A stretch of DNA of 48,110 nucleotides from an uncultured Pelagibacteraceae bacterium (lineage in GTDB: Bacteria > Pseudomonadota > Alphaproteobacteria > Pelagibacterales > Pelagibacteraceae): positions 1 through 48,110 of the forward strand of contig CACNRH010000005.1 of NCBI GenBank assembly GCA_902622825.1, read 5' to 3'. Of the stretch, positions 24,220-45,385 are shown piece after piece. Position 1 is the stretch's first letter, and every line of letters begins with the position of its first letter. A model generated the notes under the pieces. It was given only the letters and a program-made list of their open reading frames with translations. It did no database searches and was not told the origin of the DNA. The position numbers and the translations under genes were made by a program.

Positions 24220-24504
24220 TTGTCAAAAAAAGATATTCTAAATAGATTAAAAAGAAAACATCCACAAATCAACGTTGATCAAATTAGTAAAATATACGAA
24301 AAATTCATTGAATTAATTTCTCAGGCTTTATTAGATAGAAAAAGAATCGAAATAAGATCTTTAGGTATATTTTATACAAAGGCCATAAAAGAAAAGAAAA
24401 ATGCAAGAAACCCTAAGACTGGTGAAAAAATTTATGTACCTGAAAAGGTCAAACTAAGATTTAAGGCTAGCAAAGAGCTCCAAAAATTTATAAATACTGA
24501 ATAA
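24220..24504 (+). CDS. ihfB: Integration host factor subunit beta / HU-family protein
   Basis: 94-residue DNA-bending protein of the HU/IHF family. The family arm motif ARNPKTGEKI (about 62-71) is intact, and IEIRSLGIFYTK precedes it. The start is TTG, three bases after the rpsA stop. Position directly after rpsA identifies it as the IHF beta subunit rather than HU. Its last base is the first base of pyrF. Confidence 0.93.
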   Translation: MSKKDILNRLKRKHPQINVDQISKIYEKFIELISQALLDRKRIEIRSLGIFYTKAIKEKKNARNPKTGEKIYVPEKVKLRFKASKELQKFINTE

Positions 24505-39557: not shown

Positions 39558-40655
39558 ATGAGACTTTTATTTTATTTTGTAATACTTAATATATTGCTTT
39601 CAATTAAAGTTATGGCAGAAAAACCTTATCATCACATATATGAAAATGGCAAATTTATAAAATTTAGAAATTACGAAGGTGCACCAGTAAGAGATAAAAA
39701 TTTCAAATGGTCGTATAAAAAATTTAATGAGGCTAAGAAAAATATTAATGTAATTATTCCAAAAGATTTTATTGTGCCAAGAGAAATTGTTCAAAAAAAT
39801 CTTCAAAAATACAAAAATGATGATTTTATTCTCTGGATCAATCATGCAAGTTTTATATTTAAGTTAGGTGATACAACTATTGTAAGTGATTTAATTACGG
39901 CACCTAATGCGGGACCCCTTTTTTTAGGACCTCGTCGTTATACTCCACCAGCTTTAAAATTAGATCAACTTCCTAAAATTGATTTGTGGATTAACTCCCA
40001 TCTTCATTATGACCATTTGAGCGTAAGCGATATAAGGAATTTTCCTTATAAATCAGCTAAAGTATTAGTTCCTTTAAAAAATGGTTCCTATTTCAAAAAA
40101 AATAATTTTCAGGATGTAAATGAACTTGATTGGTTTGAAACTGTTAAAATTAATAAAGATTTATCTGTAACTTTAGCTCCGAGCCAACATTGGAATAAGC
40201 GAAGCATATTGCCATTTGGGCCAGGAGCAACTGATAAAGCTTTGTGGGGTAGTTTTTTAATAAATTATAAGGGAAAAAAAATTTTTTTTACATGTGATAC
40301 AGGTTATTCGAATATTTACAAAATGATGGGACAGAAGTTCGGAGGCGTGGATGTTATCTTAATTAATACCGGTGCATACGATTTTGAGGTAATCACAGGG
40401 AAAAAAGATTTTTCAATTTTTCACACTAACCCTGAAGAGGCATTACAAGCAGCAAAAGATATAAAAGCCAAAAAAGTAATACCAATGCACTATGGAAGTT
40501 TTCTTCTTGGGTTAGAAGGTAGAAATTCTGAAGGTCCTATAAATGAACCAAGAAATCGTCTTTTAAGAAATGCAAAAAACTACGGTTATACCAAGCAGGA
40601 TATAAAAATTTTTAATATTGGTCAAATATCAAAATTGGATGATCTTCTAAATTAA
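39558..40655 (+). CDS. Metallo-beta-lactamase-fold hydrolase, NAPE-PLD/UlaG-like
   Basis: 365 residues with a probable signal peptide or anchor (1-20). The di-metal site is HLHYDH (H148, H150, D152, H153), with GAYDF and MHYGSFLLG later in the fold. The resemblance is to the branch that includes N-acyl-phosphatidylethanolamine phospholipase D. The signal suggests the enzyme faces the periplasm or is membrane-bound and acts on lipids, which is inference. The 3' end overlaps the convergent lysine-rich gene by four bases. Confidence 0.85.
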   Translation: MRLLFYFVILNILLSIKVMAEKPYHHIYENGKFIKFRNYEGAPVRDKNFKWSYKKFNEAKKNINVIIPKDFIVPREIVQKNLQKYKNDDFILWINHASFIFKLGDTTIVSDLITAPNAGPLFLGPRRYTPPALKLDQLPKIDLWINSHLHYDHLSVSDIRNFPYKSAKVLVPLKNGSYFKKNNFQDVNELDWFETVKINKDLSVTLAPSQHWNKRSILPFGPGATDKALWGSFLINYKGKKIFFTCDTGYSNIYKMMGQKFGGVDVILINTGAYDFEVITGKKDFSIFHTNPEEALQAAKDIKAKKVIPMHYGSFLLGLEGRNSEGPINEPRNRLLRNAKNYGYTKQDIKIFNIGQISKLDDLLN

Positions 40656-41818
40656 TTTAATTTTTTTTGGTATTCCTTATCTATCATAGTTGTAAGTGAG
40701 TCGACCATAGAGTCTGAAAACTTAAATATCTCATTTGATTTGTACTCCTGTGAAAAGATTTTTTCATGATCTGTTTTGTCCTCAACAACAATGTTCGAGT
40801 CGGGATTATTGTCTTTTAAATAAACCAACATAATCCAATTTTCATCACTTTCCTCATCTAGTTTAATAAAAATCTCAGAAGTTTCGTATCTTTTATCGAT
40901 CACTCTCATCAATGACATTTTTTTTGGTAACCATCTCTTGTTAAGTTGAAATATACATGAAACCATACTTCTATAAAAACTTTCCAAAGTATTTTCAATT
41001 TTTTCTCTTGCTAAATTAAACTCGTATTCTTTTTGCAGTAAGTCTTCACGAGTGTCCGTATCTGAAACTTCAATACCCAATTGCTCAATTCTCTCTTTTA
41101 TTTTTTGATCTCTAATAGCTTGATATTTTTGTTTAATTTTATCAATTCTGTGCTGAACCTCTTGATAATTTTCTCTTTCTTGTTTTAAAACATATTTTTC
41201 TAAATTTTTAATCTCTAGAGCTTCTCTATTCCTGAATTGTTCAATTTTTTTCTCAAGTCTAATCTTTTCATAGAATTTTCTTTGCCTATCTGCTTGTTCT
41301 TTTCTTAGTTGGGCTTGTTCAAGTCTTATAAATCTTTTTATGTCGGCCCTACGCTCTTTCCCAAGTTTAATTTCTTCCTGTATTTCAATTTGTTTTTTTC
41401 TAATTTCCTCCTTTTTGATATCTCGAGCTCTCTTAATCTCTTCAGCTTTTTCTTTTTGCATTAATCTAATTTTTTGCTGCCTCTTTCTATCTCTTTCTTC
41501 ATCAATCACCTCTTTAAATGCTTTTATCTTATTTGCAATATTTTGGAAAAAGTTCTGTAATGCCCTATCTAAATCAAATTTGAAATTAATTTTTGGTTTG
41601 ATATTTTCACTAAATCTTATAATTTTTCTAAAAGTGTTTTTTGAATTTTTTGATTTATAGACTTTTTTTCTTTTATTTTTAGTACTTTTTTTTCTCTTCT
41701 TTAGTCTCTTATTTTTTCTTATTTTCTTTTTAATAGGTCTTTTTTTTCTTTTATAAGCTTTCACCCTAGAGGGTTTTTTCACCTTTTTTCTTTTATTTTT
41801 CTTTTTTTTAACAGTCAT
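40652..41818 (-). CDS. Lysine-rich coiled-coil protein, unknown
   Basis: 388 residues in three parts. Residues 1-65 are 60% Lys/Arg (39 of 65) with almost no acidic residues, like a histone-H1-type tail. Residues about 90-265 are a long charged helix, very likely coiled coil. The C-terminal 120 residues form a mixed, more globular domain. No known family is recognisable. No signal peptide. It lies 24 bases downstream of cfa in the same direction and may be co-transcribed. A nucleic-acid-binding or scaffold role is inference. Confidence 0.7.
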   Translation of the reverse strand: MTVKKKKNKRKKVKKPSRVKAYKRKKRPIKKKIRKNKRLKKRKKSTKNKRKKVYKSKNSKNTFRKIIRFSENIKPKINFKFDLDRALQNFFQNIANKIKAFKEVIDEERDRKRQQKIRLMQKEKAEEIKRARDIKKEEIRKKQIEIQEEIKLGKERRADIKRFIRLEQAQLRKEQADRQRKFYEKIRLEKKIEQFRNREALEIKNLEKYVLKQERENYQEVQHRIDKIKQKYQAIRDQKIKERIEQLGIEVSDTDTREDLLQKEYEFNLAREKIENTLESFYRSMVSCIFQLNKRWLPKKMSLMRVIDKRYETSEIFIKLDEESDENWIMLVYLKDNNPDSNIVVEDKTDHEKIFSQEYKSNEIFKFSDSMVDSLTTMIDKEYQKKLN

Positions 41819-41842: not shown

Positions 41843-43039
41843 TTAAGAATACATGTAATCCCGAGTTTTATTTCCTATGTTTATATCTTTATCAAGTAAT
41901 ATTTGGAAATTACATATATCTGTCCATCGGAAGGCAAATTCACAACTTGCAAGATAAAATAGCCACAATCTAAAAAACCTTTCATTAAAATTTTTTGTAA
42001 CTTCATCTTTGTGTTTTATAAATCTATTTTTCCATTCTTTGAGTGTAGAAGCATAATGAATACCCGGTAATATTTCTAAATCAGATAATACTAATTTTGA
42101 GTTCTCTATAGATGGCATCAGTTGGCTTAATGATGGTGAGTAACCAGATGGGAATATAAAAGTGGTAATCCAAGACTGTGGGTCTCTAGGTTTATCGATG
42201 CTTCCAATAGTATGTATAAGTGCTTTACCATCAGGTTTTAGTATATCATATATTTTTTTGAAATAAGTTTTGTAATATTTTCTAGTTACATGTTCCAGCA
42301 TTCCTTTTGAAATAACTTTTGAATACTTTTTTTTTACGTCTCTATAATCTTCTATTTTAAATTGACAAAGATTATCAATCTTTTTATTTCTAGCCAAATT
42401 TTTTGAAAAATCTAATTGAACTTTTGATAAAGTTATTCCATCTACTTTAGCTCCTGTTTTTTCCGCAATAGCACATGATAAACCACCGAAGCCTGAGCCA
42501 ATGTCTAAAACTGTATCGTTTTCTTCAATTCTTAATTTTTTTATTATGTGATTTATCATTGCCTCTTGGCTTTCCTCTAAACTCTTAACATTCTCAGACC
42601 AATACCCACAGCTATATTGATAATGTTTTTTATCTATAAAAATTTTATAAAATTCTGCTGAACTGATATCATAATGATGTTCGACTGAAGCTTTTGAAGA
42701 TTTTCTTGTACTAAAATTTGAAATATATCTCCATACTCCTCTAATCTTTTTTATTGATGATGAAAATTTGTTTATTTCCTTTCGCCCAATATTTTTAAGT
42801 GCAATGTTTAAGAATTCAGATAATGTTCCATTTTTAATTGATATCTCTCCATCTGTGAAACCTTTTCCAAAATAATAATCTGGAAACAATAAAAGTTTAT
42901 ATTCAATAAATTTATTATTTAATTTTAAAGTCAAATTTGGGTTGGAATAAGGGTTTCCAATTTTAACTATCTTTTTGTTATGAAGTTCTAATTTAAAACC
43001 GTCGTCGGTTATGAGCCTATTCAAAAAATTTATTAACAT
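41843..43039 (-). CDS. cfa: Cyclopropane-fatty-acyl-phospholipid synthase
   Basis: Adds a methylene bridge to unsaturated acyl chains of membrane lipids using S-adenosylmethionine. 398 residues, usual length. The SAM-binding motif VLDIGSGFGGLSCAIAEK, HYDISSAEFYKIFID, YSCGYW and VISKGMLEHV are typical of the family. It shares one base with the DapA-like gene before it (TAATG), pointing to one operon. Confidence 0.92.
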   Translation of the reverse strand: MLINFLNRLITDDGFKLELHNKKIVKIGNPYSNPNLTLKLNNKFIEYKLLLFPDYYFGKGFTDGEISIKNGTLSEFLNIALKNIGRKEINKFSSSIKKIRGVWRYISNFSTRKSSKASVEHHYDISSAEFYKIFIDKKHYQYSCGYWSENVKSLEESQEAMINHIIKKLRIEENDTVLDIGSGFGGLSCAIAEKTGAKVDGITLSKVQLDFSKNLARNKKIDNLCQFKIEDYRDVKKKYSKVISKGMLEHVTRKYYKTYFKKIYDILKPDGKALIHTIGSIDKPRDPQSWITTFIFPSGYSPSLSQLMPSIENSKLVLSDLEILPGIHYASTLKEWKNRFIKHKDEVTKNFNERFFRLWLFYLASCEFAFRWTDICNFQILLDKDINIGNKTRDYMYS

Positions 43040-43920
43040 TAAGCAGCCTTTTTTTTCATTAAAAATTCTAAATCTTTTAATGCATCAATTAATTCTTTTT
43101 TTTCAGAGTTTTGAAGTTTTTTTAATGGAGGAAGTAGATTTCCATACTCCTGATTATCAATTTCATATACTGCGTGAATAGCTGGTATCAAATTAAATTT
43201 ATCAAAAACACTTCTTACCTGCATTAGTTTATCATTAACAGTTTGTTCAGCGTTTTTCTCAAAATCATCAAAAACTTTTCTAGACAAAGCAAAAGTTAAA
43301 TTAGCTGTGGCGCTTATACAACCATCGGAACCATTGCTAAGTCCTTTATATAAATATTTCTCACTACCTGGAAAAACCAAAAAGTTAGGTAATTTCAATT
43401 TTTCATAAATATTGTAACTACTATCTTTAATTCCAATTATTGACTTAGGAAAATTTTCATTCAACTTTTTTACCATCTCAACTGAGAAAAGGTATCCTGA
43501 AAGTTTTTCAAAATTATATAAAATTATTTTAGCCTTAGGATTTTTTTCAATTAAAGTTTTATAAAATTTAAAAACCCCCTCGTCCGAATTATTTTTATAG
43601 TATGCAGGTGGCATAACTAAAAAAGTGTCAAAACCATACTCAATGCCATACTTAATTAAATCTAAATTTTCGTTAATAGAGTTGCAGCCAGTTCCTAAGA
43701 AAAAATTTTTTCTTAATTTATGAGTAGATATTTTTGATATTAAATTTTTTTTCTCTGATATTGAAATTAGCTGACTTTGCCCTGTAGATCCAAAGAAAAA
43801 GACACCGTGTAAACCACCCTTTATCAAGTTTTCACCATGTTTAATTGTAGACTCAACGTTTAGCGTTAAGTCATCATTGATTATACTCAGCGAAGCTGCG
43901 AAAACACCTTTTCTTAACAT
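43039..43920 (-). CDS. Dihydrodipicolinate synthase (DapA)-family aldolase/lyase
   Basis: 293 residues, TIM-barrel of the DHDPS/N-acetylneuraminate lyase family. Schiff-base lysine is K165 in GIKDSS and Y135 sits in the LYN position. The substrate-phosphate-like GTTGE motif reads GSTGQ (44-48), so it is probably not DapA itself. Members cleave or join pyruvate with an aldehyde; the substrate here is unknown. First gene of the leftward group with cfa. Confidence 0.85.
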   Translation of the reverse strand: MLRKGVFAASLSIINDDLTLNVESTIKHGENLIKGGLHGVFFFGSTGQSQLISISEKKNLISKISTHKLRKNFFLGTGCNSINENLDLIKYGIEYGFDTFLVMPPAYYKNNSDEGVFKFYKTLIEKNPKAKIILYNFEKLSGYLFSVEMVKKLNENFPKSIIGIKDSSYNIYEKLKLPNFLVFPGSEKYLYKGLSNGSDGCISATANLTFALSRKVFDDFEKNAEQTVNDKLMQVRSVFDKFNLIPAIHAVYEIDNQEYGNLLPPLKKLQNSEKKELIDALKDLEFLMKKKAA

Positions 43921-43962: not shown

Positions 43963-44895
43963 ATGAAAGTTCTAGTAATTCAACAAAGATACGGTATTGG
44001 AGATATGGTAATTTTTTCTCCATATATTCAGGCAATTTCTAAAAAATGTGGGGTGCCTGTTAGTATACTTGCTAAAAAAAGTTCTAAAGCATCTGAAATT
44101 TTTTCAGAGGATGATAGTGTTAATGAAATAATAGATCTTGAAAGATCCTTAGATACTATCAGAGGTTTTTTTAAACTATCAAAAATATTAAAAGAAAAAA
44201 ACTTTGATCGGGTATATATTTTTAACGGTTCTTTAAGGTACAACCTAATTGTAAAACATGCTGGTATAAAATCTATATTTCAATATCCATTGTATACCTC
44301 TAAAGATATCATATTTCAGACAGCAAAAATTTTTACTGAAAATTCAATTGGTGAAATAGTTGACACTCAACCCTATATCAAAACAGATAAAAAGAAATCA
44401 GATTTGATTTTTGATAAAGATTACAAACATATCATTTTAGGACTATCGGCATCTGGTGAAACAAAAAGATGGGGAGTTAATAATTTTGTCAAAGTTACAA
44501 ATAAAGTTTCTAGGGAACGTAAGTGTAAATTTTATTTAGCTGGAGGGTCAGCTGATCAAAAAATTATTGATGAATTTATCGGTAAAAGTGAAAGTAAAAA
44601 TTTTTTTTCTCTCACAAATTTAAATATAAAGGAAATAATATCTATTATTAAGTACGCAGACCTTTATTTAGGTAATGATACTGGATTCATGCACATAAGT
44701 TCCGCTCTAGGATTAAAGTGCATTGGTTTATTTATTGACTCACCAGCGTATGCTTATAGTGGTTACACAAAAAATATAGAAGCGATAGTCCCACGAGGTG
44801 AGACCATTAATTCAACAACTCATAATACAAATGGAAGAGACAAAATTTCTTCAGACGAGGTAATTCAAAAAGTTTTAGAACATATAGCTAAATAA
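43963..44895 (+). CDS. Family 9 glycosyltransferase (heptosyltransferase-like)
   Basis: 310 residues. The N-terminal RYGIGDMVIFSPYIQA and the C-terminal sugar-nucleotide-binding GNDTGFMHISSALG match GT9 enzymes of LPS core synthesis, which transfer ADP-heptose or similar. It starts 42 bases from the DapA-like gene in the opposite direction. The 3' end overlaps the J-protein gene by eight bases. The sugar cannot be named. Confidence 0.87.
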   Translation: MKVLVIQQRYGIGDMVIFSPYIQAISKKCGVPVSILAKKSSKASEIFSEDDSVNEIIDLERSLDTIRGFFKLSKILKEKNFDRVYIFNGSLRYNLIVKHAGIKSIFQYPLYTSKDIIFQTAKIFTENSIGEIVDTQPYIKTDKKKSDLIFDKDYKHIILGLSASGETKRWGVNNFVKVTNKVSRERKCKFYLAGGSADQKIIDEFIGKSESKNFFSLTNLNIKEIISIIKYADLYLGNDTGFMHISSALGLKCIGLFIDSPAYAYSGYTKNIEAIVPRGETINSTTHNTNGRDKISSDEVIQKVLEHIAK

Positions 44896-45385
44896 AGTCA
44901 GTTTTTAAGATTTTTTCTTTAGCTTCATTTACTAGTTGACTCAATCTCTCAGTATTTAAATCTCTGTTCATATCAGGATGGATTTTTTTTTGAAGTTTTT
45001 GAGCTGCCGAAATTACTTCTTCTTTTGAACAACCTTTTTTCAAGCCAAGGAGTTTGTAAGCTTCATCAACAGAGATGTTTGATGAGCCTTGTGATGCTTG
45101 AGAAAATTTTCCTGAATTTTTAATATACTGCAAAAGACGATAAAGTTGAAAAAATTGTAATGCGGTTAAACCTTTTATTTTCAATCCTGATAAAAGTATT
45201 AAGAGGAAGGGCAAAGAAAATATAAATTTTCCTCCAATAGCTAAAATTGTTGCCAGCACCAAAGAAATTAAAACAGCGATCCGCTTTAAAAATTGGGCAA
45301 TTTTTTTGCTGCTTGTTTTTGCAAACCAGTTTAAAAACAAATAAACAATGACAAATATGATAATTCCAAATAAAAACAAATTCAT
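44888..45385 (-). CDS. Membrane-anchored J-domain protein, Pam18/TimB-like
   Basis: 165 residues: two N-terminal membrane segments (about 2-20 and 38-66), a linker, then a short C-terminal J domain (about 104-160) with HPD at 136-138 and the ending SVDEAYKLLGL ... LVNEAKEKIL. This layout and the NEAK ending are those of mitochondrial Tim14/Pam18 and its alphaproteobacterial relative TimB, rather than DnaJ. It would recruit DnaK to the membrane. It starts 13 bases from the divergent oligopeptidase gene. Confidence 0.85.
   Translation of the reverse strand: MNLFLFGIIIFVIVYLFLNWFAKTSSKKIAQFLKRIAVLISLVLATILAIGGKFIFSLPFLLILLSGLKIKGLTALQFFQLYRLLQYIKNSGKFSQASQGSSNISVDEAYKLLGLKKGCSKEEVISAAQKLQKKIHPDMNRDLNTERLSQLVNEAKEKILKTDFI

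Follow-up and report, generated by a model that had tools for sequence, protein, structure and literature searches.

The reading frame running from 41818 to 40652 on the minus strand is a genuine gene, and it encodes a single-copy, family-wide protein under selection, with an unusual tail-stalk-head design and an uncharacterised function. It lies in a stretch of Pelagibacteraceae DNA of 48,110 nucleotides, which we call the window. The protein is a candidate grip on DNA or RNA, probably tying nucleic acid to something else. Our preferred reading, to which we give a probability of roughly 0.4, sees in it an architectural or tethering protein specific to this lineage: the tail would bind a polyanion, most likely chromosomal DNA, a long helix would act as a spacer and the head would bind protein. 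The gene carries no family name in the libraries searched, its architecture is both striking and selected, and the possible ligands form a short list that can be tested. The gene and its predicted parts are as follows.

40652..41818, minus strand: whole gene, 388 aa, with ATG start at 41818 and TAA stop at 40654-40652; orthologues exist
41624..41818, minus strand: disordered Lys/Arg tail, residues 1-65; net charge +39, pLDDT about 36-52
41081..41569, minus strand: long predicted helix (AlphaFold), residues 84-246 (163 residues); net positive, no heptad periodicity
40655..41050, minus strand: C-terminal head, residues 257-388, with helix 257-296, five strands and helix 364-387 (AlphaFold); dN/dS 0.23

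Distribution in SAR11

SAR11 dominates the plankton of the surface ocean, and its genomes have been pared to about 1.0-1.5 Mb. Searching with the query sequence recovered the gene in 29 of 61 close genomes, counting that of the window, as one copy each and, in one genome, as two pieces at contig ends. A profile search across the order found it in 227 of 297 genomes, or in 131 of 150 when restricted to those of high quality, and the matches listed for this first profile all fell within the window's family, in genera g1, g5, g6, g7, g9 and g10. Genus g8 at first appeared to lack the gene, a suggestion overturned by a profile built on the head only, which recovered it in 4/4 g8 genomes missed by the first profile. 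The gene thus occurs, in one copy, in each of the seven genera of Pelagibacteraceae that the searches covered. It was present in every single-contig genome of the family that was searched (11/11), which supports an earlier expectation that it is unlikely to be dispensable.

The gene was not found in the genomes examined of the sister family (f2), there were no matches among 240 and 289 genomes sampled from the class or 200 from the phylum (samples that overlap), and viral contigs scanned with the family profile held no relative. Presence throughout the family and absence from the genomes sampled outside it therefore indicate that the gene arose at the base of the family, or elsewhere became unrecognisable, and was then kept. 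Because it has been retained in nearly every member despite genome paring, it likely matters to the cell.

A tail that drifts in sequence and keeps its charge

The preliminary description counted 39 lysines or arginines among the first 65 residues, and this count is exact; the same residues include no Asp or Glu (0/65). Against the composition of the window's proteins (K+R 14.9%, D+E 10.6%), the binomial probability of at least 39 K/R is 9e-17. The most basic 60-residue stretch of the protein is 62% K/R, versus 35% for the runner-up among the 51 ORFs of the window, and at 12 other loci the orthologues reached 52-65% each while the best other protein reached 35%; this ranking of basic tails covers the window and those 12 loci. 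Given both the binomial probability and the contrast of 62% with 35%, AT-rich codon bias does not explain the tail.

Diverse orthologues repeat this pattern: in 36/36 the tail is 48-67% K/R with 0-2 acidic residues each, and Asp or Glu occupies 25 of 4356 tail positions (0.6%), compared with 10.6% in the proteins of the window. Besides Lys and Arg the tail has Ser, Asn and Thr; Ala numbers 0-3 and Pro 0-4 in each tail of the 36 orthologues, and large hydrophobic residues are few. Lysine can become either arginine or glutamate through one A/G transition, yet exchanges between the tails of close relatives numbered 400 for K/R versus 6 for K/E, a contrast that is large even though the pairs share ancestry and so are not independent events. 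This argues for translation of the tail in this frame. Exchanges of K/N, K/T and K/I were also common among close relatives, and mean tail identity within the genus was 45%, so that the sequence drifts and the charge stays. Tail dN/dS was 0.52, a value made unreliable by poor alignment of the tail. Judged from these substitutions, the selected property of the tail is its positive charge, and this, together with the predicted disorder, points to polyanion binding.

Tail length may also be subject to quick change. In a complete genome of genus g8 (G190), the tail of the orthologue (L109:4067-5620) has expanded by a tandem repeat whose unit of 105 bases (35 aa), approximately KTKTKKKTLPKKKKIKVSKLKKTKPIRSKKNTKSV, is present 4.7 times. 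The repeat was not seen in the relatives L110, a partial copy that ends near a contig edge, and L111, and it is the comparison of L109 with these two that suggests rapid change.

The long helix and the C-terminal head

AlphaFold, given an alignment of 36 orthologues, returned a disordered tail, a continuous helix and a separate head, with a short low-confidence helix at residues 60-69 and a break between the long helix and the head. Since mean pLDDT was 77.6 and pTM 0.41, the model does not fix the relative placement of these three parts. The helix is predicted with pLDDT 89-95 over residues 121-200 and a dip in confidence around 211-220; 53% of residues 101-250 are charged, and the net charge of the helix is +7 to +22 in 36/36 orthologues.

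This region had been described as a coiled coil of 170 residues. A continuous helix over 84-246 is predicted with confidence, but the heptad periodicity of a coiled coil is missing: hydrophobic power over residues 101-250 was 0.03 at a period of 3.5 versus 0.70 at 3.6, and in the family alignment the moment at 3.5 was 0.06 (residues 151-246). What exists is a weak hydrophobic stripe with a period of 3.6 residues (p=0.12-0.18 for the whole region; p=0.01-0.04 for residues 151-235, a region picked post hoc), and long helix is the safer label.

The last 120 residues had been called a distinct domain, and the prediction agrees: a separate, strongly conserved head of ~130 residues, with elements in the order alpha-beta5-alpha and pLDDT mostly 84-94. 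Folding the head alone from a single sequence gave a poor model (pLDDT 47) with the order of elements unchanged. Five residues (L278, R283, S287, Y333 and F365) are invariant in 36 sequences. Median dN/dS was about 0.23 in the head, ~0.23 in the distal part of the helix and 0.32 over residues 101-150, values that place the head and the distal helix under purifying selection. The idea that the ORF is spurious or decaying, a product of A-rich sequence, could draw on the low complexity of the tail and a genome of ~30% GC, but it is refuted by the open frame in aligned full-length orthologues, the dN/dS of about 0.23 in helix and head, the charge-preserving tail substitutions and the spread over seven genera, and we give it practically no credence. 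One orthologue, L027 (G011:C9:20302-21054), has an in-frame TGA inside the head, close to a contig end, which may reflect either faulty assembly or a damaged copy.

Structural comparison of the head yielded nothing at E<=0.001 in Foldseek searches of PDB and viral models (best E-value 0.13). VIA-align gave Z 5-8 (maximum about 8.3) for alignments of about 73-107 residues, at 5-13% identity and with an rmsd of about 3.3-5; the tool itself gives such scores as background, and many unrelated folds tied here. Frataxin, the C-terminal part of CapZ alpha, the SycT chaperone, XisI and Mediator Med17 all have an alpha-beta-alpha layer of similar order, but at these background-range scores, with unrelated families tied at 5-13% identity, we do not claim a frataxin, CapZ alpha or chaperone-like fold.

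Family searches

The preliminary description found no known family to fit the 388-residue protein, and none emerged here: Pfam, NCBIfam, PHROG and PDB were all without a match, no clear family of known function appeared, and orthologues proved to be abundant and selected. Pfam and NCBIfam scans of the whole protein, of its C-terminal 152 residues alone and of 36 orthologues gave chance-level matches only (e.g. AhpC-TSA_2, E=0.05), so that searching the C-terminal part by itself, as had been proposed, added no family. PHROGs scans of the 36 orthologues were likewise at chance level, and a PDB sequence search with the family profile returned nothing at E<=1. No H1-, Hc1- or Hc2-type model in Pfam or NCBIfam matched any of the 36 members at E<=0.1, and these family scans recognised no DNA-binding domain, no RNA-binding domain or ribosomal-protein family, and no enzyme family in any of the 36 members. 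The HU/IHF domain (PF00216) was absent from the matches of the protein and its 36 orthologues. Neither a transmembrane segment nor a signal peptide was apparent by eye. The literature searched, with partial coverage, held no description of this protein.

Gene neighbourhood

Two genes precede the gene on the same strand in the window.

41843..43039, minus strand: upstream neighbour, cyclopropane-fatty-acid synthase family (CMAS; PF02353, E=6.9e-69), 24-base gap to the gene
43039..43920, minus strand: dapA-like aldolase (DHDPS family; PF00701, E=1e-38), start of the likely operon

Because the gap in the window is only 24 bases, a single transcript with the CMAS gene is likely. The usual order in g1, g6, g9 and g10 is the DHDPS-family aldolase, the CMAS-family enzyme and then the gene, all on one strand, and the aldolase lies just upstream, on the same strand, in g1, g6, g7, g9 and g10. 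No CMAS gene occupies this position in g5, g7, g8 or one g6 genome (L100, L095, L099, L070, L109); in g7 and that g6 genome the aldolase adjoins the gene, which in g5 and g8 follows a DsbA-family protein. Since the gene stays while its neighbours change, the operon is uninformative on function, and a link to cyclopropane fatty acids is weakened by loss of the CMAS neighbour where the gene remains. The patchy CMAS neighbour suggests that membrane-lipid modification may vary within SAR11.

Often encoded nearby are a large peptidase-like protein and a membrane protein with a DnaJ domain. The window's example of the latter, at 44888-45385 (minus strand), is small, with hydrophobic segments in its N-terminal part and the DnaJ domain (PF00226, E=6e-8) at its C-terminal end, a layout that recalls membrane J-proteins, and ORFs resembling it occur near the gene in several genera. 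Elsewhere in the window an HU/IHF-family gene lies at 24223-24495 (plus strand); in the family, complete genomes carry three genes of this kind.

Possible roles

Under our preferred reading, that of an architectural or tethering protein, the disordered and strongly positive N-terminal tail would bind a polyanion by charge, with chromosomal DNA the most likely partner. The long helix, about 24 nm if straight, would serve as a spacer and possibly as an oligomerisation stalk, and the head, near-neutral to slightly acidic, would bind another protein or itself. With several tails joined, the protein could then bridge DNA or anchor a partner at the nucleoid, a role proposed for AlgP, PhaF and Hc2. 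Such a protein would add to the usual nucleoid proteins and not replace them, HU/IHF genes being present. This reading is supported by the selected charge and predicted disorder of the tail and by the lack of an enzyme family in 36 members, and, by analogy, by the precedent of AlgP and PhaF and by the growth of the g8 tail through repeats, which resembles that of DNA-binding Hc2. We infer nucleic acid as the ligand, DNA over RNA, oligomerisation, and the head as a protein-binding module.

A narrower proposal, which we consider somewhat unlikely, is that the protein is a hitherto unrecognised nucleoid organiser, universal in Pelagibacteraceae and seen only there, which would bridge DNA multivalently and whose design of tail, stalk and head is not known elsewhere among bacteria. 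Were it so, it would offer a direct handle on chromosome packing in very small, streamlined cells. Several observations weigh against a nucleoid role. With up to three HU/IHF-family genes per genome, a further nucleoid protein is not required; no DNA-binding domain or H1/Hc1/Hc2 family was recognised, and the tail is without the Ala and Pro of known H1-like tails; the neighbours are mostly metabolic, not chromosomal; and such a tail would be equally suited to RNA, polyphosphate or anionic lipid.

The chief alternative to DNA is RNA or the ribosome. The tail could act like the basic extensions of ribosomal proteins, in translation, RNA decay or ribosome storage, and a Lys/Arg tail free of acidic residues and a helix itself net positive would fit this reading, the helix charge fitting DNA or RNA alike; one copy across the family suits a housekeeping task. 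Set against the lack of any RNA-binding domain or ribosomal-protein family, and of any apparent linkage to translation genes at the loci read, these points leave such a role unlikely.

We judge it quite unlikely that the protein is a membrane scaffold, with tail and long helix lying on anionic phospholipid and organising the inner membrane or tethering something there. The 3.6-residue stripe, with no heptad, is the pattern of a flat-lying helix, but it is weak and its best region was picked post hoc. Similarly, a cyclopropane-fatty-acid synthase gene often adjoins, but the gene stays where this lipid gene is absent beside it (g5, g7, g8 and one g6 genome). TubY offers a precedent, its helical bundle with a lysine-rich tail binding both membrane and DNA (PMC7762940). 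Against a scaffold, the tail is poor in large hydrophobic residues, and inspection by eye revealed neither a transmembrane segment nor a signal peptide.

Tethering of polyphosphate granules, as proposed for AlgP, a protein of similar layout that spaces these granules (PMC9239181), is very improbable: among 22 SAR11 genomes searched, the distribution of polyphosphate kinase 1 was patchy, with 5 carrying it (three of those five in the window's genus), and PPK2 occurred in none, yet the gene is present with or without these kinases, and complete genomes that have neither make a core role of this kind unlikely.

Relation to known tailed proteins

DNA is favoured as the ligand of the tail by analogy with AlgP, PhaF and Hc2, whose tails of this type bind DNA while another part of the body tethers or oligomerises (PMC9239181, PMC2848022). 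AlgP and PhaF of Pseudomonas are H1-like tethers of granules and nucleoid, each with a helical body and a lysine-rich tail (PMC9239181). Our protein shares with them the helical body and the long disordered lysine-rich tail that carries charge and repeats (here in g8 only). Their tails, however, are C-terminal and built of KPAA repeats (PMC9239181), whereas this one is N-terminal, of K/R, with almost no Ala or Pro. The AlgP layout as published contains nothing that corresponds to its alpha-beta5-alpha head, and there is no sequence match between the proteins.

We know of no long stalk or folded head in Hc2 of Chlamydia. This DNA-binding, H1-like protein varies in length by lysine-rich elements of 36 aa (PMC2848022), and, together with its Bordetella-type relatives, it resembles our protein in having a lysine-rich tail that varies by tandem units of ~35-36 residues (here in g8). 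Hc2 is small (165-237 aa) and consists largely of lysine-rich pentamers (PMC2848022), whereas the SAR11 protein has 388 aa with stalk and head, and we read the likeness of the tail repeats as convergence in style, not as a sign of common descent. The C-terminal region of TubY likewise forms a helical stalk with a lysine-rich stretch, whose lysine cluster binds DNA non-specifically as well as membranes, but TubY is a plasmid partition protein with a MerR-type DNA-binding head and a short tail at the opposite end (PMC7762940).

The tail had been likened to histone H1 in the preliminary description. Charge, disorder and repeat growth uphold the likeness, but composition does not (K/R with S/N/T, Ala 0-3, Pro 0-4, no AK or KPAA repeats). 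Because both the Lys/Ala/Pro composition and a profile match were looked for and neither was found, we do not file it as an H1-like protein, although it plausibly works like a bacterial one.
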